Shown here: positions 1,136 to 32,941 of the stretch, piece after piece
Layout of the letters: each line of letters opens with the position of its first letter
Position numbering within the stretch: position 1 is the stretch's first letter
IMG/VR virus record: IMGVR_UViG_3300007871_000045
Location: 1 to 45,034 of that record
Length of the DNA: 45,034 nt
DNA from: a virus
Reading direction: 5' to 3' (one strand)
Translations under genes and position numbers: made by a program
Notes under the pieces: model-generated
Databases searched by the model: none
Told to the model about the DNA's origin: nothing
What the model saw: only the letters and a program-made list of their open reading frames with translations

Positions 1136-3739
1136 ATGGGACAGCAAACGAGTAGCGTAACTAGTGCCAGCGACTTTGACCCAACACAGGCCCGACTCAC
1201 TGGGGCTGATGGTGGAACGCCGATTGCCACCGAGATCATCTATGGCCAAGACGACCACGGATGCGATCTGAAACTCTTCGGCGCGACCTCTGGCAAGTAC
1301 ATGATGTGGGACGAGAGTGCAGACAAGCTCATTCTGTACGGCCAGTTGGACGTAGGAGTAGATGACACTGGCCATGACGCCAAGTTCTTCGGCGCTACAT
1401 CGGGCAGCTACATGCTGTGGGATGAAGACAAGGACCGACTTGACCTGATCAAGGCAAAAGTCAGGATCGGCACAGGTGCAGGCGCGACCAATGGCGTTGA
1501 GTTAGACGGCACTGACCCCGACCAACTGCTACAGGCGCACGCCTACATAGACGGCGCGGTAGCCAGTGGCGCGTATGCCGGAGCCTACTTCACAAACACC
1601 GTGACGGCATCGCAGACTAACAACGTCTCAGTGTTCGGTACATGGAGCGAGTTATACCTCACGGGTGACGTTTCCCTCATAAGCAACCATGCGGCAATCT
1701 GGGGCAACCTGGAGATGGCCGACGCAGGAGGGACACTGACACTCCCTGGCGGGGTAGCTTGGCACTCTGCCATCACTGGCACGATCATCAGCCCCGACGG
1801 ACTGACGGTAAGTTCTGGTGGGCTGCTGGCATGCTTCGTGGCAGACAACCAAATGACCTCTGGTTATACCAGCACTGGCGCGACGGTCGCGGGCTACGCA
1901 GTACGCATGGGATCGGGCAAGGCTCGGCTCCCCTACGGGCTATGGATTGACCCCGATTCAGTGTATCAAGCCATCCGCATCGGGGAACTAAGCTCCGACA
2001 CACCTGGGTCGGGCTTGGTTCTCGACAGCACCTACAACGTTGGTATCCAAATCCACGTTGACGACAATGAATTGCCCTTGGGAAGTGCTACGACGGCACG
2101 TGGCATTGACAGCAGATTCCTAAACTACAATTCGCCCAAGAGCGAAACCTGGGGCATCCAGGGCAAGTGCAAAATCAGTGCCCTGGCCCGTACCGCCAAC
2201 GTGGCGGCGGGCGTCGTGGGGGCCTTTGAATCTACAGGCACATGCTCTACTGCAACCGGATCGGGCAACACCTTCGTTACCGGCGTGATGGGACGCTTGG
2301 GCCTTGCTTCAGGCTTCACCATCGGATCGGGCACCTACGCCTGCGGCGTGCTGAGTTTCTACAACACGCTCGCTGCCAACGACCCATCGGGCGAGTACAC
2401 CGTTGCGTACATGGCAACGGCGAGCGACATCGCAGGAGTAGGCGATTGGGACTACGGTCTTTACGTCGAAGACACTGCAATTGGTGTCTACCTCAGTAGC
2501 CCCACCACTGGCATCAGCATTGCCAGTGCGACCGGCTATGCAATTGACATCCAGACAACCGGCCAGTTCCGCATGGGCATCCAGGGAACCGGAATTCCCA
2601 CGGCGACGGACACTCCGCATGCAGTAGAAATCCACGCCGAAACCAACGCAGACGCCATCATCGACAACCCTGGTGGGACGTGGTGTGGCTTCTCAGCCGG
2701 TATCCGCTGTCGGTACGAAATCAGCAAAGCCCAGACCGCGACGGTTGGATTCCAGGCGATCGAGGGTCGCCTGCGGCCAAAGGCGGCTATGGCTGGTGGC
2801 GTTCACTGCGGTATCTCTGGCACTATCGAGGCTGATGGCGCAGTGGCTTTCACTGGCACTGCAACAACTCAGCGGAACGCAGGCAACTTCTGCATTGAGT
2901 TGGGCGAGGGCTGTTCGTTCGGCTCGACTTCCGGCTGGCTTACTGGCGTCACCATTGACTCCAGCATTCACGCTACGCAGACCGGCATGACCAACATCAC
3001 CTACCCCGCGCTGCGGATCAAGAAATCCGACAGCAAACTGGCATGGCAGCACGGCATCTACATCGATGCGGATTCCTGCACAACTGGCATCACCATCGGT
3101 ACGGCCACGACCGGAATGTCTATCGGTGCTGGTTGTACCAGTGCGCTTCAAATCGGGGCGGCAGCGACCACCGCAGGCAGCGGTGTGACCGTCAATGCCG
3201 CAGCCCCAGTCGGCTTCTACTTTGACGATGGCGGGTCAGCACTGACAGCCTGGAGCGAATGCTTTACGGTCGGACTTGTCTTACCAACCGCTTCAACTGG
3301 CGGCACACAGACAGGAATGCCCTCAGCGACACACATCTACATCGACCAACAAGCCAACTACACAGGACCTGCAGGCAACCAGCAAGCCATAACGGCTCTC
3401 TGGGCTGGCTACCTCGTCCGCAACACCTCAACTTTAGATGGATTCGATCAGGGAGGTGCTCACGCAATCCAGGCGTCCGTAGACGTAGCCACGGGCTGCG
3501 AAGTAGCAGACGGAACAACACTCGCCGGGATACAATTTTCCGGCAACTGGTCTCTGGGAACGATCACCGGATACATTGTGCCGATCCACATTCCAGTCAC
3601 AAACGCAAACTGGTCTGCCTTCATGAAAATTGACGAGGCAAATTGCTACCAGGACACGGCAGCCGGCAGCGGTGGTTACAAATACCTGAAAGTCTATCTT
3701 GGGGACACACTCTACACCATCGTTATGGCCACGGCATAA
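1136..3739 (+). CDS. Beta-repeat structural protein downstream of capsid (decoration, fibre or spike candidate)
   Basis: 867 residues, rich in Gly, Thr, Ala and Ser, with no membrane segment and no catalytic motif that I recognise. The N-terminus holds two degenerate copies of a roughly 35-residue unit (GATSGKYMMWDESADKL near residue 49 and GATSGSYMLWDEDKDRL near residue 85). The rest is a long succession of short strand-turn segments such as TGISIASATGYAIDI, as expected of a beta-helix or solenoid. A strong ribosome site (GAGGAGG) precedes the ATG. The position just after the capsid gene suggests a head fibre, decoration or tailspike protein; the sequence alone does not choose. A hairpin follows the stop codon. 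Confidence 0.72.
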   Translation: MGQQTSSVTSASDFDPTQARLTGADGGTPIATEIIYGQDDHGCDLKLFGATSGKYMMWDESADKLILYGQLDVGVDDTGHDAKFFGATSGSYMLWDEDKDRLDLIKAKVRIGTGAGATNGVELDGTDPDQLLQAHAYIDGAVASGAYAGAYFTNTVTASQTNNVSVFGTWSELYLTGDVSLISNHAAIWGNLEMADAGGTLTLPGGVAWHSAITGTIISPDGLTVSSGGLLACFVADNQMTSGYTSTGATVAGYAVRMGSGKARLPYGLWIDPDSVYQAIRIGELSSDTPGSGLVLDSTYNVGIQIHVDDNELPLGSATTARGIDSRFLNYNSPKSETWGIQGKCKISALARTANVAAGVVGAFESTGTCSTATGSGNTFVTGVMGRLGLASGFTIGSGTYACGVLSFYNTLAANDPSGEYTVAYMATASDIAGVGDWDYGLYVEDTAIGVYLSSPTTGISIASATGYAIDIQTTGQFRMGIQGTGIPTATDTPHAVEIHAETNADAIIDNPGGTWCGFSAGIRCRYEISKAQTATVGFQAIEGRLRPKAAMAGGVHCGISGTIEADGAVAFTGTATTQRNAGNFCIELGEGCSFGSTSGWLTGVTIDSSIHATQTGMTNITYPALRIKKSDSKLAWQHGIYIDADSCTTGITIGTATTGMSIGAGCTSALQIGAAATTAGSGVTVNAAAPVGFYFDDGGSALTAWSECFTVGLVLPTASTGGTQTGMPSATHIYIDQQANYTGPAGNQQAITALWAGYLVRNTSTLDGFDQGGAHAIQASVDVATGCEVADGTTLAGIQFSGNWSLGTITGYIVPIHIPVTNANWSAFMKIDEANCYQDTAAGSGGYKYLKVYLGDTLYTIVMATA

Positions 3740-3752
3740 CGATAAAGGCTTT

Positions 3753-3778
3753 GGGGGATGAGCCTTCAATCATCCCCC
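3753..3778 (+). terminator. Hairpin after the beta-repeat gene, possible attenuator
   Basis: A 9-bp perfect stem (GGGGGATGA / TCATCCCCC) with an 8-base loop lies 13 bases after the preceding stop. No T-run follows, so it is a weak candidate terminator. It could reduce read-through from the abundant capsid transcript or mark an RNA processing point. It lies just before an ATG at 3784 that could otherwise extend the next gene, which argues for the later start at 3838. Confidence 0.45.
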
Positions 3779-3837
3779 CATCTATGTCACAGAAAAGTCG
3801 AAATCGAAGAAGAAAAGAGAGAGGTAAACCAAGCGAT

Positions 3838-4146
3838 ATGGAATTCACAGTTGGAGAACGGCTTGCTACACTCAACCTACTGCCACCCGAGGGCAGCTTG
3901 CTCACCATGAAAATCGTACATGACCTGCGCCAAGCTCTAGCCTTCAGCGACGAGGAACTAACTGCCCTGAACTTTCAGCAGAACGATGACCGGCTGACAT
4001 GGCAAGACACCGTTGAGCCAAAGGAAGTCGAGGTCGGCGTCAAGGCAGCAAGCATCATCTATGACTTGCTAGAGAAACTCAACAAAGATGGAAAGATCAG
4101 AGAGGCCCACCTGACCCTCTGTGAGAAGTTTGAGTACACGGAATGA
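3838..4146 (+). CDS. Small conserved phage protein, head-to-tail region
   Basis: 102 residues, acidic and soluble. The order of short helices (ERLATLNLLPPEGSLLTMK, then LRQALAFSDEELTALNF) resembles a small protein of unknown function found in many tailed phages. I chose the ATG at 3838, which follows a GAGAGAGG ribosome site, albeit at a long spacing of about 13 bases. The in-frame ATG at 3784 sits beside a hairpin, lacks a ribosome site and would add a very basic 18-residue tail. The stop overlaps the next start (ATGA), so the two genes are translationally coupled. No function is assigned. Confidence 0.72.
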   Translation: MEFTVGERLATLNLLPPEGSLLTMKIVHDLRQALAFSDEELTALNFQQNDDRLTWQDTVEPKEVEVGVKAASIIYDLLEKLNKDGKIREAHLTLCEKFEYTE

Positions 4147-12668: not shown

Positions 12669-14432
12669 ATGGGATCAATAGATTGGCCCTGGATAAAAGG
12701 CAAGGTCGAGGAGATCGAAGCCTGGCTCACCAGCTTGCAGTCTTGGGGCAACTTCGACCGTATCACCGTCAAGCGGCTTGACCTCACCACGGGTGGAACA
12801 GTAACAATTGACCACGGCGGGCTTCTAGGTCTGACCGACGATGATCACACCATCTACCTCTTGGCCAATGGCACACGCAACCTGACGGGCAACCTGACCG
12901 TAAGCGCGGGTGTGACAATAGATGGCGTGGACATCTCAGTACACGCAGCCAACGCCGATGCCCACCACGCGGGGTTTATCGGCCTAGAGGACAACGCGGC
13001 GACAGCTATCGTGCCGGCGGCGGATGACAGGATTCAGCTTACCGACGATGGAGTAATCAACGCCGACGCCTCTGGCAACACGATTGCTCTTAGCATCGCT
13101 CAGGGGCAAATAGACCACGGCTCGATTGGTGGGCTGGACGGCGATGATCACAGCGCAGTGTACCCCAACTTTGGAGACACGGAGACCATATCCGGCGCGT
13201 GGACGTTCTCAAATGCCATCAAAGCAGACAGAGCAGACGACGCCCGTATCCTAGAGATATATGAGGGTGCAACCCAAAAGTGGGACATCTACAGAGACCC
13301 ATATGATCGCCTCGTCTTCTGGGATGCAGTGAACGAAGAAAACAAGTTTCACTTCGGCCAGAGCAATAACATCCTCCTCATCAACATGGCAGACAACGAT
13401 GTATACTGCCAATTGTCAGGCACGCCAGGCGACATCACTTGGGGCGTCTACAACGACCCTTCCAATCATGGGTTTATAGGGAGCCGCAGTGACATCCCCT
13501 TCGCCATCCGGCAGCACACCTCGCGAAAAGTATGGATTACCTCTACCCAAATGGTCATCAACGAGGACAGCGCCGACTACGACTTCCGCGTGGAGTCCAA
13601 TGGCTCCCAACACGCTCTATTTGTACAGGGGAGCGATGGGTGGATTGGCCTCGGCATAGGAGTTCCCATGGCGAGGCTGCACCTTTATTCCCCTGACGAA
13701 AATACCAATCTTTACTTCACAGTTGGTGACGACCACCACACACCAGCAGTGTGGCTGGCCACCAAATACGACACCGTACCCCAATGGGCAGGGATGGGGA
13801 CAATTGCTGCGGATGGGAGTCTCTGTTTCTCGACTACTGGCAGTTTTTCTACTGCGGGGATAATACTAGAGCGTGACGGTGACGTGCTATTCAACCGGGG
13901 CAACGTCGGCATCAACGATGTCACACCATCCTTCAAACTCGACGTGAACGGCACAGGCCAATTTACTGGCAAGCTGACTCTGGGCGGCGGGACCGATCCA
14001 CCCTACGTCCTCTACGACCGTGAGACCCACAGCTCTATCATCGAGCGCATCAGGAGAGAAGTACCCCCCTCCAAGCTCGGCGGCGCAGTTCTGTTTTTCA
14101 ACAGTCTGACAAAACGACTGGAAGTCTTTGTCCCCCTAGAGGGCAAGTTCTATAACCTGCGCGGCGGACTCATTGAGGCAGTGCATCCCATCACCGAGAC
14201 CTACGAAACGGTTGAAAAGCATTACCTGGACGAGGAGACAGGAGAAGTCAAAAGTTACCCTGTTCCCAAGACCACCACACGACACGTCCTCCGTGAAGGC
14301 TACGAGTTAGAGCCTTGGACGGGCAAATTCATGCACGGTAAGAAAGAAGTGTATCGAGAAGAAGCTACCGAAGTGATCACCACGACGAGAGGAGGTGAGA
14401 AAAAGTGGGCTACGAATCAAAGAACATCGTGA
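12669..14432 (+). CDS. Tail fibre or spike protein
   Basis: 587 residues. The segment GLTDDDHTIYLLANGTRNL and its partner GLDGDDHSAVY are typical of phage tail fibres, as is the GNLTVSAGVTIDGVDIS repeat. Residues 200-450 are short beta segments. The C-terminal 130 residues are more charged (VEKHYLDEETGEV) and might be the receptor-binding end or a chaperone-like tail. The start MGSIDWPW was chosen because it lies 4 bases after the preceding stop; the upstream in-frame ATG overlaps that gene. It would bind the host surface. It lies last in the virion block before the small membrane protein. Confidence 0.8.
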   Translation: MGSIDWPWIKGKVEEIEAWLTSLQSWGNFDRITVKRLDLTTGGTVTIDHGGLLGLTDDDHTIYLLANGTRNLTGNLTVSAGVTIDGVDISVHAANADAHHAGFIGLEDNAATAIVPAADDRIQLTDDGVINADASGNTIALSIAQGQIDHGSIGGLDGDDHSAVYPNFGDTETISGAWTFSNAIKADRADDARILEIYEGATQKWDIYRDPYDRLVFWDAVNEENKFHFGQSNNILLINMADNDVYCQLSGTPGDITWGVYNDPSNHGFIGSRSDIPFAIRQHTSRKVWITSTQMVINEDSADYDFRVESNGSQHALFVQGSDGWIGLGIGVPMARLHLYSPDENTNLYFTVGDDHHTPAVWLATKYDTVPQWAGMGTIAADGSLCFSTTGSFSTAGIILERDGDVLFNRGNVGINDVTPSFKLDVNGTGQFTGKLTLGGGTDPPYVLYDRETHSSIIERIRREVPPSKLGGAVLFFNSLTKRLEVFVPLEGKFYNLRGGLIEAVHPITETYETVEKHYLDEETGEVKSYPVPKTTTRHVLREGYELEPWTGKFMHGKKEVYREEATEVITTTRGGEKKWATNQRTS

Positions 14433-14611
14433 AGAGCAAAACGTTTTGGTTCAACATCCTGGCAGCCTTGGCGACCATCGCCAGCCAGTTTGGGTTTGGT
14501 GACTTCGAGCCAGACAAGGGGGTCGTCGCAGTAGCATTGGGCGTCGTCGCACTTGTCAACATCATTCTGCGCTACCTGACTGACCAGGGCATACACATTT
14601 TGCCCAAGTAG
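14405..14611 (+). CDS. Small two-helix membrane protein, holin-like
   Basis: 68 residues with a GTG start 5 bases after a strong GGAGGTGAG site. Two hydrophobic stretches (WFNILAALATIASQFGF and VVAVALGVVALVNIILRYL) are separated by an acidic turn (GDFEPDKG), the plan of a short class II holin. Basic residues sit at both termini. It overlaps the fibre gene by 28 bases and ends one base before a strong promoter's -35. Position at the end of the late block fits a lysis gene, but no endolysin is next to it, so the role is uncertain. Confidence 0.62.
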   Translation: MGYESKNIVKSKTFWFNILAALATIASQFGFGDFEPDKGVVAVALGVVALVNIILRYLTDQGIHILPK

Positions 14612-14612
14612 C

Positions 14613-14641
14613 TTGACAGACCGCGCTGCCTATGGTAGAAT
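14613..14641 (+). promoter_or_regulatory. Sigma70-type promoter for the 14.6-17.7 kb unit
   Basis: TTGACA, a 17-base spacer and TAGAAT, with TGG before the -10 (extended -10). Predicted transcription start is at about 14648, the exact beginning of a structured RNA. It begins two bases after the stop of the membrane protein, so the downstream replication genes can be transcribed independently of the late block. Confidence 0.85.
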
Positions 14642-14647
14642 GCAGAT

Positions 14648-14775
14648 ACCAGGAACCACAACCGAATAGCCGTGCTAACCAAAGGGTCACTTTCTTGGCC
14701 TGCTTTGCTGTTCCTGGTGCGAACGTCCCCCCCAACGGACTGAAGCAGGCGAGCAGGTCAAGAGAGTGGCCCTTT
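14648..14775 (+). ncRNA. Structured RNA with a long helix and a possible pseudoknot
   Basis: The strand directly after the promoter folds into three helices. A 16-bp helix (14681-14696 with 14760-14775) has only two G-U pairs and no mismatch. It encloses an 8-bp helix (GCCTGCTT 14698-14705 with AAGCAGGC 14743-14750). A 9-bp perfect match (ACCAGGAAC 14648-14656 with GTTCCTGGT 14710-14718) pairs the very 5' end of the transcript with the inner loop, which makes a pseudoknot. No convincing reading frame covers it. It could be a regulatory leader for the leader peptide and helicase operon, or a free small RNA. No known family was recognised. Confidence 0.6.
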
Positions 14776-14807
14776 GACTTGCCTAATAGCAAGAAAGAAG
14801 AGGAACC

Positions 14808-14876
14808 ATGCTATTTAGAATATATGTTTGGCTTTTGACGTTACCCTGCTTCAACTCACACAGGAGGCAACCATGA
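14808..14876 (+). CDS. 22-residue hydrophobic leader peptide
   Basis: MLFRIYVWLLTLPCF followed by NSHRRQP. A good GAGGAA site precedes the ATG and the stop overlaps the next start (ATGA), so it probably couples translation to the next gene. A hydrophobic core with a basic tail could also be a tiny membrane peptide. It lies 32 bases after the structured RNA, which may control its translation. Confidence 0.45.
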   Translation: MLFRIYVWLLTLPCFNSHRRQP

Positions 14877-15073
14877 CTAAGACTGAAGCTAAGACGCATA
14901 GGGAGCGACACGAGTTTCTGCATAGGGCACTCGACGAATTGGTGGCAGACTTCATCCTGCACAATGCCAACAAATCGCCAAGCGACACCACAATCATGGA
15001 ACTGATAACATGGTCTTACAAACAAACACGCGAGTCAGAAGATGAACCACACGCTAGAAAGGAAATCAAGTGA
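14873..15073 (+). CDS. Small helical protein of unknown function
   Basis: 66 residues, MTKTEAKTHRERHEFLHRAL onward, almost entirely helical and charged (His, Glu, Lys rich), ending in a basic tail. No motif is recognised. The ATG has an excellent AGGAGG site and overlaps the leader peptide stop; its own stop overlaps the next start (GTGA). It therefore belongs to one translationally coupled operon with the helicase. Confidence 0.68.
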   Translation: MTKTEAKTHRERHEFLHRALDELVADFILHNANKSPSDTTIMELITWSYKQTRESEDEPHARKEIK

Positions 15074-15453
15074 GACCAGCAAACAGAGTTGAGTTTGGCG
15101 AACATTGGTTTGGCCTGGGATTCAATGGCATAGTGAAACTAAGGGCCGAAGTCCTCCGCGAACGAATGATAGTAATCATCGTAGAGTGGGACAATGGCGA
15201 GACCGAAGAATGGTCGCACTGTGGCGACTTTACCGTTCTTTGGGAAAAGCCCTCCCACGCCGAGCTTACCAGTCTGCCCGATGCGATGGCCCACTACGAC
15301 GCGGGCGTTGCTGCCTTACAGAATTGGGATCTCGAGGAGGCAATCCACGCATTCTCCCAGGCCATCGAGGCGGACCCCGACCTAAGTAAAAGGAGCCCCT
15401 CATGGCAACAACCACAAATACCAAAGTCAAGACCGCCACACCCACCGAAATAG
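15070..15453 (+). CDS. Small protein with a C-terminal TPR-like repeat
   Basis: 127 residues, GTG start overlapping the upstream stop. The N-terminal 60 residues form a beta-rich domain with an acidic strand pair (VEWDNGETEEW). Residues 74-105 (DAMAHYDAGVAALQNWDLEEAIHAF...) fit a tetratricopeptide repeat, a helix pair used for protein binding. The last 22 residues are basic and proline-rich and are encoded within a 52-base overlap with the helicase gene, so they may be a by-product of that overlap. It may bind the helicase or primase; no enzyme motif is seen. Confidence 0.62.
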   Translation: MRPANRVEFGEHWFGLGFNGIVKLRAEVLRERMIVIIVEWDNGETEEWSHCGDFTVLWEKPSHAELTSLPDAMAHYDAGVAALQNWDLEEAIHAFSQAIEADPDLSKRSPSWQQPQIPKSRPPHPPK

Positions 15454-16709
15454 CCCGCATGTACATCTCCCGTCACTGGAACAACGTCATGTTCACCCGT
15501 GACCTGTGGCACCACTACAGCAACGGCGTGTGGAACGAGTGCCCCGACCTCGTTCAAGAGCACCACTTCTGGAACTTGCTGGAAGAGTACGAAAACCGCC
15601 ACCAGTGTCGGCCAGCAATGAATGTCTACCACGCCACGACGCGCAGGTGCAAAGCCAGACTATACGTGCGCGAGGAGCAAGTAGACGCCAGCCATGACTT
15701 GATCAACCTGGCAAACGGCGTCTACAACATGCTGGACGGCAATTTGTACCCGCACAAGGCAGAGTACTACATGACCACCCAGTTGCCCTTCAATTATGAC
15801 CCACAGGCCAAAGCAGAGATGTGGAGCCTGTACATCCTCACCACATTCGTCAAGCCACATTCAACAGAGCATGATCCAGAACTTGCTGCCTTCGTGCAGG
15901 AAGCAATGGGCTACTCGCTCACCACCTCCGTCGAGCACCACGTCGCGTTCTGGTGCTACGGAGAAGGCGCAAACGGTAAAGGGGTCCTCTTCCACGTGCT
16001 GGAAGAACTGGCAGGCAACGCGGCGGTTCCCCTCAATGTAAGCCTACTACGCTATAAGAGGGACACCTACCAACTTGCCGACCTCGCCGGCAAGCGCATC
16101 GCCCTGTGTAGCGAGGCCAGCGCGAGCGATTCCCTGGTGGAAGATGCAATCGTGAAAGCCCTGGTCGGCGGCGATACCCTTCGCGCACGCCAGGCTTATG
16201 GCAAGGGATTCGTCCTTCACCCAGTGGTCAAGCTGTGGTGGGCCATGAACAAGCTGCCAGCCGTGGCCGATACGTCCTATGGCTTCTGGCGACGAACGCG
16301 GGTCATCCCCTTCAACCGGCAGTTCGAGGAACACGAACGCATCCTTGACTTAAAGGAACAACTCTCGCTTGAACTGCCAGGCATCTTCCGGTGGGCGATG
16401 GAGGGCCTGAAGCGATTGAACAAGCGAGGGCACTTTGACATCCCCTCTCAAGTGCGGCTGGCGACCGAAAAGTACAAGAAAGAAAGCAATCCGGTCGCCA
16501 TGTTTGTAGAGAGCGAGTGCATCACAGGGCAGGGAAAGGAAGTCCAGTCCTCGGTAATCTACAGTGGCTACACAGAATGGTGCAAAAGCAATGGCTACAA
16601 GCGCCTCAGCCAGGTTCGTTTCAAAAGCGAGATGGAACGCCTGAAATTCTTCGCCCACCGGAAGGCAGCAGGCGTGTTTTTCGAAGGCGTGGCGATGAAA
16701 TGGCCGTAG
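15402..16709 (+). CDS. D5/P4-type superfamily 3 DNA helicase
   Basis: 435 residues. The Walker A motif GEGANGKGV lies near residue 188; the Walker B/sensor region follows with ALCSEASASD and KLWWAMNKLP, and FWRRTRVIPF is the typical arginine finger region of this family. The N-terminal part (residues 20-170) corresponds to the D5_N region, and the C-terminal part contains a winged-helix-like domain (SSVIYSGYTEWCKSNGYKRL). Family members unwind DNA at the replication fork, usually fused to a primase. Here the primase (PriPol) is a separate gene on the opposite strand at 24254. Start at the ATG with AAAAGGAG upstream. Confidence 0.9.
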   Translation: MATTTNTKVKTATPTEIARMYISRHWNNVMFTRDLWHHYSNGVWNECPDLVQEHHFWNLLEEYENRHQCRPAMNVYHATTRRCKARLYVREEQVDASHDLINLANGVYNMLDGNLYPHKAEYYMTTQLPFNYDPQAKAEMWSLYILTTFVKPHSTEHDPELAAFVQEAMGYSLTTSVEHHVAFWCYGEGANGKGVLFHVLEELAGNAAVPLNVSLLRYKRDTYQLADLAGKRIALCSEASASDSLVEDAIVKALVGGDTLRARQAYGKGFVLHPVVKLWWAMNKLPAVADTSYGFWRRTRVIPFNRQFEEHERILDLKEQLSLELPGIFRWAMEGLKRLNKRGHFDIPSQVRLATEKYKKESNPVAMFVESECITGQGKEVQSSVIYSGYTEWCKSNGYKRLSQVRFKSEMERLKFFAHRKAAGVFFEGVAMKWP

Positions 16710-17716: not shown

Positions 17717-17836
17717 ATGAACTCACTGACAGCCATTAAGAGGCTTCTGACCCTGTGCAGCGACGCATGGGGGGCACCATTTGTCATGGACGCCTATGGT
17801 GCAATTAGCTCTGATAATGAACTGGGTGAAAGTTAG
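17717..17836 (+). CDS. 39-residue ORF, first of a pair with a shared end
   Basis: MNSLTAIKRLLTL... ends in SDNELGES. The ATG follows a GGGGAGG site one base after the previous stop. The second small ORF (17849) ends in SDNGLGES, and the DNA of both ends is nearly the same over about 26 bases, including GGGTGAAAGTTAGAA. The conserved part may be a duplicated peptide end or a duplicated DNA/RNA element. Confidence 0.5.
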   Translation: MNSLTAIKRLLTLCSDAWGAPFVMDAYGAISSDNELGES

Positions 17837-17848
17837 AAGGGAAGCAAA

Positions 17849-17995
17849 GTGAATAAGGAACATGATTGGCTCGAAGAGGCCCGTAGCTCGACGGATGCTA
17901 GTGTGATTTCTGTCCAGGGTAATATCTGCTACCCTCCACTTGGTTGGATGGAAATTGACAATTTCTGTTCAGATAATGGCTTGGGTGAAAGTTAG
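17849..17995 (+). CDS. 48-residue ORF, second of a pair with a shared end
   Basis: GTG start after AAGGGAAG. The sequence is acidic (MNKEHDWLEEARSS) with two Cys residues and ends SDNGLGES, like its upstream neighbour. It is the last gene on the + strand before the convergent noncoding region. No function is known. Confidence 0.48.
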   Translation: MNKEHDWLEEARSSTDASVISVQGNICYPPLGWMEIDNFCSDNGLGES

Positions 17996-18433
17996 AACTC
18001 GCTAGTGTCGACGACTAACTAAGCAGGGGTAGACAAAGCAATGCAAAGGGAAGTGTATGGGGGGGAGGAGGGGAGGAGAAGAGAAGAGGCTATGCGAAAT
18101 GATACGATGCGCGGCGCGTTATGTCAAGCTACGGACGTGTGCCGCGCAGTTAGTTGGTATAATTGACCATATACCAACCTATTATAGTAAAGTAATATAC
18201 TACTTTACTTTACTTTAGCCGAATGCGAACAGAAGAAAGAGAGAGATGCGCACGAAGAAGGGCAAACATGCAAAGTTATGCATGTGTTTGGTTTGCTAGT
18301 CAACCCACTCATACCATCAGACGTCCACACACGTGAGACAACTTAGAGTTACTCTAAGTTAGAGCAACTCTAAGCTAGGGCCAAAACAAAAAGCGCATCA
18401 ACGACGATGCGCTTTTCACGGTGGGCTATTCGA
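17996..18433. other. Convergent noncoding region with six inverted repeats and a polypurine tract
   Basis: No gene fits these 438 bases. A 31-base pure purine tract lies at 18059-18089, starting with seven G. Then come perfect inverted repeats: 8 bp at 18108-18115/18141-18148, 9 bp at 18153-18161/18170-18178, 9 bp at 18186-18194/18201-18209 (in an AT-rich stretch with TTTAC repeats), 7 bp at 18266-18272/18279-18285, and 9 bp at 18342-18350/18366-18374, the last with overlapping alternative palindromes. The final one is the terminator at 18389-18416. Both transcription directions end here. An origin or packaging-related site is possible. Confidence 0.6.
18389..18416. terminator. Bidirectional intrinsic terminator
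   Basis: A perfect 11-bp stem, AAAAGCGCATC with GATGCGCTTTT, around a 6-base loop. Each strand has a run of T at the 3' end of its stem. It lies between the converging + strand helicase unit and the - strand early block, 17 bases after the last - strand stop, so it can end both. Confidence 0.9.
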
Positions 18434-32875: not shown

Positions 32876-32912
32876 GGCATGGCCTCTGCCGTTCGAACCA
32901 CACCACATAGGA

Positions 32913-32941
32913 ATTATACCACACATTCTACACATTGTCAA
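32913..32941 (-). promoter_or_regulatory. Early promoter (- strand), perfect consensus
   Basis: On the - strand: TTGACA, 17 bases, TATAAT, with TGG in front of the -10. Transcription starts at about 32907 and would cover the regulator, recombination and replication genes. It lies back to back with the late promoter, with their -35 boxes 29 bases apart. Confidence 0.93.

Follow-up and report, generated by a model that had tools for sequence, protein, structure and literature searches.

A leader RNA encoded between the late genes and a helicase operon in the window (the whole 45,034-nucleotide stretch of viral DNA that was analysed) shares its architecture with elements in other phages: a sigma-70-like promoter is followed by a 5′ segment complementary to the loop of a 20–33-bp hairpin, and the start codon usually lies 11–37 nt past the stem. 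The family comprises 13 elements, namely that of the window and 12 more from about nine other phage lineages, and the order of promoter, 5′ segment, hairpin and start codon is identical in all 13. The design looks like a kind of RNA switch for phage replication that has not been described before, and it supports the original prediction for the window (a pseudoknot or two-state switch, riboregulatory in nature and of no known family); its function is untested. For uncultivated phages it provides a conserved RNA family at the step that decides on DNA replication, where regulators are unknown.

The window leader and its operon

The window record looks complete, with a 99-bp terminal repeat and ends that are bridged by a contig of the same phage; a same-phage contig is identical to the window across 14300–15300. 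A region within the structural genes (2472–3838) has no match in the same-phage contig, though its flanks match at 99–100%, which suggests mosaic exchange. The late genes extend to a 68-aa gene (14405–14611), and two bases past its stop begins a sigma-70-type promoter (14613–14641, plus strand), consisting of TTGACA (14613–14618), a 17-nt spacer and TAGAAT (14636–14641). This near-consensus promoter, present where it was originally predicted, scores 11/12 and is among the five best promoter-like sites of the window; the start of transcription expected from it is 14648, for which there are no expression data.

Behind the leader (14648–14807) follow, all on the plus strand, a 22-codon ORF with a Shine-Dalgarno-like GAGG (14800–14876; ATG at 14808), which overlaps the next start (14873) as ATGA, a 66-aa protein (14873–15073) with no family above cut-off, a 127-aa protein (15070–15453) with a weak TPR match, and a D5-type replicative helicase (15402–16709; Pfam D5_N and Pox_D5, PHROG DNA primase). 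The helicase expected to follow the leader peptide is thus in the operon, but not directly behind the leader, from which the leader ORF and two small genes separate it. The sequence AGGAACCA at 14801–14808, at the ribosome site, repeats 14651–14658 and can form 6 bp with the loop of the long hairpin.

The 5′ end of the transcript (K1, ACCAGGAAC, 14648–14656) is the perfect 9-bp partner of 14710–14718 (K1′), a pairing that can be extended with 14659–14661/14705–14707. Folding places a small linker hairpin (UAGC-CGU-GCUA) at 14667–14677, ahead of the long hairpin H2, whose arms (14680–14704 and 14752–14776) form 25 bp, 22 of them Watson-Crick and three G-U. The H2 loop (14705–14751) holds K1′, a GUCC/GGAC mini-helix and a competing GCAGG copy at 14743–14750, and a further small hairpin (CUUGC...GCAAG, 14778–14793) lies between H2 and the ribosome site. 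The start codon is 31 nt past the H2 stem. After the stem the sequence reads ACUUGCC, without the U-tract found in most other elements, such that the criterion for an intrinsic terminator (a GC-rich stem with a U-run) is not met.

All the pairings predicted originally exist, including the 16-bp helix 14681–14696/14760–14775 with its two G-U pairs, the inner helix 14698–14705/14743–14750 (8 bp, perfect) and the equally perfect crossing helix 14648–14656/14710–14718; counting them as three independent complementarities was, however, an overcount. The stem is one continuous 25-bp helix with rival registers, as AAGCAGGC (14743–14750) and AGCAGGTC (14752–14759) compete for one 5′ strand and the inner helix is an alternative register of the repeated GCAGG. 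The window therefore has two strong features, H2 and the 5′/loop pairing that crosses it.

The 163-nt leader folds at −67 kcal/mol (z = −5.7), with none of 200 shuffles as good. The 9-bp match is unusual when the 5′ part and loop are dinucleotide-shuffled (P = 0.0035); the total energy of the 5′/loop duplex is not (P = 0.26). Freeing the H2 loop costs about 3 kcal/mol (−57.7 to −54.7) against a duplex worth −16.4 kcal/mol, on which basis the pseudoknot would be thermodynamically reasonable, by our own estimate made without a pseudoknot program.

No reading frame accounts for the element: none of its frames matches Pfam, and no common frame was seen in the other elements. Rfam scans of the window and nine other loci, at gathering and permissive thresholds, returned only chance microRNA-type matches and no C4 or IsrK RNA, consistent with the absence of a known family. 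Ribozyme and tRNA-like readings were rejected, there being no Rfam or ARAGORN match. Nothing shows a free phage RNA, which had been raised as an option. No description of such a leader was found in the literature, subscription journals being mostly outside the scope of the search.

Relatives, conserved motif and covariation

The collections searched contain no close relative of the window copy, no similarity to the window DNA was found in annotated phages, and scans with single proteins (helicase, terminase, capsid, 66-aa gene) gave nothing, or only the same phage at 99–100% identity. The helicase nearest to that of the window (L015, 56%) sits in another operon without such a leader. More remote phages were reached by a helicase profile, and their loci were scanned for a hairpin with an upstream promoter and a 5′ segment matching the loop; this gave L016 (two elements, with a weaker third, G004c, in the same phage), L175/L176, L057 and later L028. 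In the first hairpin scan seven loci had matches with the 5′ segment and none with a mirror-image 3′ segment, and in a loop-swap control over 69 promoter-linked hairpins a 5′/loop match (kiss) of at least 8 bp was observed in 14 versus 3.2 expected (duplicate loci included). Loci reached by a capsid profile yielded no further convincing element.

L057 and L175 have in common a 5′ part with UUGGCAG and a loop with CUGCCAA. Viral contigs were scanned for this pair together with a −10 and part of a −35 element, which gave 22 contigs: eight of the L057 type, L175, four new long-hairpin lineages (L260, L261, L264 and L265) and nine background matches without the hairpin, which were discarded (L259, L263, L266, L270, L272, L273, L274, L277 and L278). 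The motif scan of 400 Chloroflexota genomes found none.

In most relatives K1 makes up the loop of a small hairpin (H1), and a second segment (K2) often comes after it; the expected transcripts of the window and L028 begin at or close to the kiss. An H1 loop UUGGCAG with CUGCCAA in the H2 loop is common to six lineages, four of which came from scanning for that very motif. The closing stems of H1 vary by lineage yet pair (GCG/CGC, GUG/CAC, CCG/CGG, UUGUC/GACAA), and other phages retain the leader architecture with different sequences. The promoters of the other elements mostly score 9–12 of 12, with a weaker −35 in L264 and in the annotated phage genome MW202674; a Shine-Dalgarno sequence and start codon 11–37 nt past the stem are found in 11 of the 13 elements, and a U-rich tail stands directly at the end of the H2 stem in most, being absent in the window and G004c.

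The window copy fulfils three of the five criteria used for the family, with a promoter of 11/12, a 5′ segment making at least 7 perfect bp with the loop (here 9) and an H2 of at least 20 pairs (here 25) ahead of the Shine-Dalgarno sequence and start; the U-tract at the H2 end is lacking. Its K1 has no enclosing stem, leaving it without H1 and without UUGGCAG, and the criterion for the core subgroup is not met. It may be regarded as a divergent member at most, whose membership rests on architecture and position.

Covariation in the pairing is seen between L264 and MW202674, which are 78% identical over the element. The kiss UUGGCAG/CUGCCAA of L264 is replaced by UUGGCGG/CCGCCAA in MW202674, a double compensatory change, and four further double changes fall in two hairpins of the H2 loop. 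Over 48 pairs, 96.9% of cells are standard, compared to 43–45% when the partners are slid by 1–3 columns. The original prediction would have been refuted by arms that vary without compensation; the opposite was found, in the 5′/loop helix and in the loop hairpins. This covariation is strong but small evidence, as it comes from two sequences with a structure written from one of them. A third relative in this group, MW202520, has the kiss UGGCGGG/CCCGCCA, and its T9 tail stands ahead of a gene for a primosomal protein.

In 13/13 elements the sense strand gives a better fold than the antisense, and the H2 stems contain 44 G-U versus five A-C pairs, a count that is somewhat biased in that the scoring favours G-U; the strand was set by the promoter. 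These observations bear on whether the element might be a chance structure or a feature of the DNA (an origin hairpin or attachment site) rather than a functional RNA. Inverted repeats near replication genes can be origins, and there is no close relative for the window copy itself; the compensatory changes, the G-U bias of the sense strand and the constant position between a promoter and a start codon nonetheless make such an explanation very improbable, and for the family it is already largely refuted.

Alternative folds and possible modes of action

When transcripts are folded as if ending just before the H2 3′ arm, the 5′ part pairs with the loop region in 10 of the 13 elements (state 1; 15 pairs in the window, 22 in L057 and 20 in L016a), whilst full transcripts form H2 in all 13 (state 2), in support of the two-state switch envisaged originally. 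L260, L265 and G004c show no state 1 in the truncated-transcript model, and for any single element the shuffle control gives state 1 only modest support. In the truncated folds, full 5′/loop pairing leaves a linker to H2 of 0 nt in L057, 3 nt in L264 and 4 nt in L261, by our estimate too short to span a finished H2; in these three the two states should exclude each other, if the model holds, whilst the short kiss alone can persist.

As most H2 hairpins end in a U-tract, we propose that the leader acts in cis as a co-transcriptional attenuator or timer of the phage replication operon, a reading that is inferred without expression data and to which we give about an even chance. During the advance of the polymerase, K1 and K2 would pair first with the newly made H2 loop, keeping the H2 5′ arm open. 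The emerging 3′ arm would then zip H2, after which only the short K1 kiss could stay, as a pseudoknot. In most elements H2 and its U-tract resemble an intrinsic terminator, and the ratio of the states, presumably set by elongation speed, a factor or a second copy of the RNA, would determine entry of the polymerase into the replication genes. In the window copy, without a U-tract, H2 would probably have another output, be it cleavage by RNase III, polymerase pausing or regulation of the neighbouring ribosome site.

RNase III processing, or stabilisation of the mRNA by a 5′ hairpin with the 5′ end tucked into its loop, could also be the main purpose of H2. The near-perfect duplexes of 25–33 bp, a 5′ end that coincides with the kiss or lies close to it (window and L028), and the missing U-tract of the window copy would all suit such a role, which we consider quite unlikely since it leaves the U-tract of most elements and the conserved UUGGCAG/CUGCCAA kiss unexplained. 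The RNase III hairpin of the lambda N leader is likewise long and belongs to an early phage operon; to our knowledge it has no conserved loop kiss.

Of known systems, the immunity leader of satellite phage P4 (seqA–CI RNA/seqB–seqC) and the P1/P7 C4, N15 and IsrK RNAs are closest, and by analogy the P4 leader may be taken as the nearest. As in P4, where transcription terminates prematurely, the new leaders precede replication genes and have a promoter-proximal segment complementary to a structured RNA that comes later in the leader; the window satisfies this P4/C4-type criterion, its upstream segment being complementary to the loop of the structured RNA. Unlike the new elements, the P4 stretch scanned has no comparable 20–33-bp hairpin there and no near-consensus promoter; the P4 promoter position used for this comparison is an assumed one.

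A P4-like RNA immunity in trans is accordingly conceivable, if unlikely: the loop of an excised H2 (like P4 seqB) would bind newly made leader transcripts at their 5′ segment (like seqA), stop transcription of the replication genes and exclude relatives. The order of promoter, target, complementary structured RNA and replication genes agrees with that of the P4 leader (PMC4825925), and, with linkers below the estimated minimum in L057, L264 and L261, an intact H2 would more readily pair in full with a 5′ segment in trans. The third complementary site (seqC) of P4 is nevertheless missing from the new elements: in none of those tested do the 600 nt downstream contain a 7-nt site identical to the 5′ segment. 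An immunity specificity should diversify, yet UUGGCAG is found in six lineages, and no integrase or repressor was seen among the window proteins scanned. Equally tentative, and in our judgement doubtful, is a combined reading, under which these leaders would form a widespread class of phage RNAs not described before. The transcript's own 5′ hairpin would read the loop of a leader terminator, and this would have two roles: timing the expression of the replication genes in cis, and providing in trans a sequence-specific RNA immunity able to diverge by compensatory change.

HK022 putL and putR are likewise cis-acting structured RNAs right behind early phage promoters, and a put-like antitermination, in which the folded leader would bind RNA polymerase and cause it to ignore downstream terminators, would fit elements that are promoter-proximal, structured and located in early operons; those of L264, L282 and MW202674 lie near repressor-like, erf, SSB and replication genes, as in the lambdoid nutR/putR region. 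Put RNA is, however, about 70 nt long with two stem-loops that bind the β′ zinc domain (PMC9378689), without a long hairpin or loop kiss, compared to the 20–33-bp hairpin and kiss here, and most H2 hairpins are themselves terminator-like, which renders this reading rather improbable.

Attenuators and riboswitches with terminator/anti-terminator folds share with the preferred cis-acting attenuator the two alternative leader folds, one ending in a U-tract; they differ in that the upstream segment of the new leader targets the terminator loop and not an arm, and in that there is no recognisable ligand domain. By analogy, the leader would act as an attenuator with a loop that the 5′ end of the same transcript reads, and we found no described family for it. 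The family may connect P4-style RNA immunity, put-style antitermination and attenuation, and its alternative folds, its testable kissing helix and the naturally occurring compensatory pair L264/MW202674 lend it to direct experiment.

Replication genes, hosts and further observations

Replication genes lie downstream of most elements: a D5 primase/helicase in the window, L057, L175/L176 and L016b, an O-like initiator and DnaB in L260 and L265, and a primosomal protein in L282. This association is partly ascertainment, because the first-round elements were sought within about 5 kb of a helicase; L260, L265 and the L264/MW202520 group were found without that requirement. Two helicases related to that of the window occur in Anaerolineae MAGs, from which a Chloroflexota host would be possible but is not shown, and other elements are located in lambdoid-like phages.

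In L175 an HNH endonuclease gene (641–1174) separates the RNA element from the primase gene; L176 (1031) lacks this gene, which suggests that it may be a mobile insertion. Five related phages or prophages carry, immediately behind the D5 helicase, arrays of short repeats with inverted copies (TGTAGGGT, GGTTACAG and CTGCTACC units; L015 6359–6495, L178 5120–5296, L179 5302–5427, L180 6660–6817 and L181 6078–6244), which are candidate replication origins. Transcripts from two other promoters of the L057 phage (L226 6236 and L227 4307) start with GGCUUUGCGAAGCC, the 3′ half of which could pair in addition with a longer hairpin further downstream; these may represent a second type of leader with two states.

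The minus strand of the window has two promoters of 12/12, at 32941–32670 (−) and 23697 (−). The roughly 230-nt untranslated leader behind the former folds no better than shuffles, and no common motif was found between the window leader and the leader at 32906(−). An 11/12 promoter at 18127–18058 (−) would give a transcript that is rich in pyrimidines and antisense to the small genes of the plus strand, which is a G-rich tract there. Within 17800–18000, two similar stretches (GATAATG...TGGGTGAAAGTTAGAA) lie close together at the ends of adjacent small ORFs.
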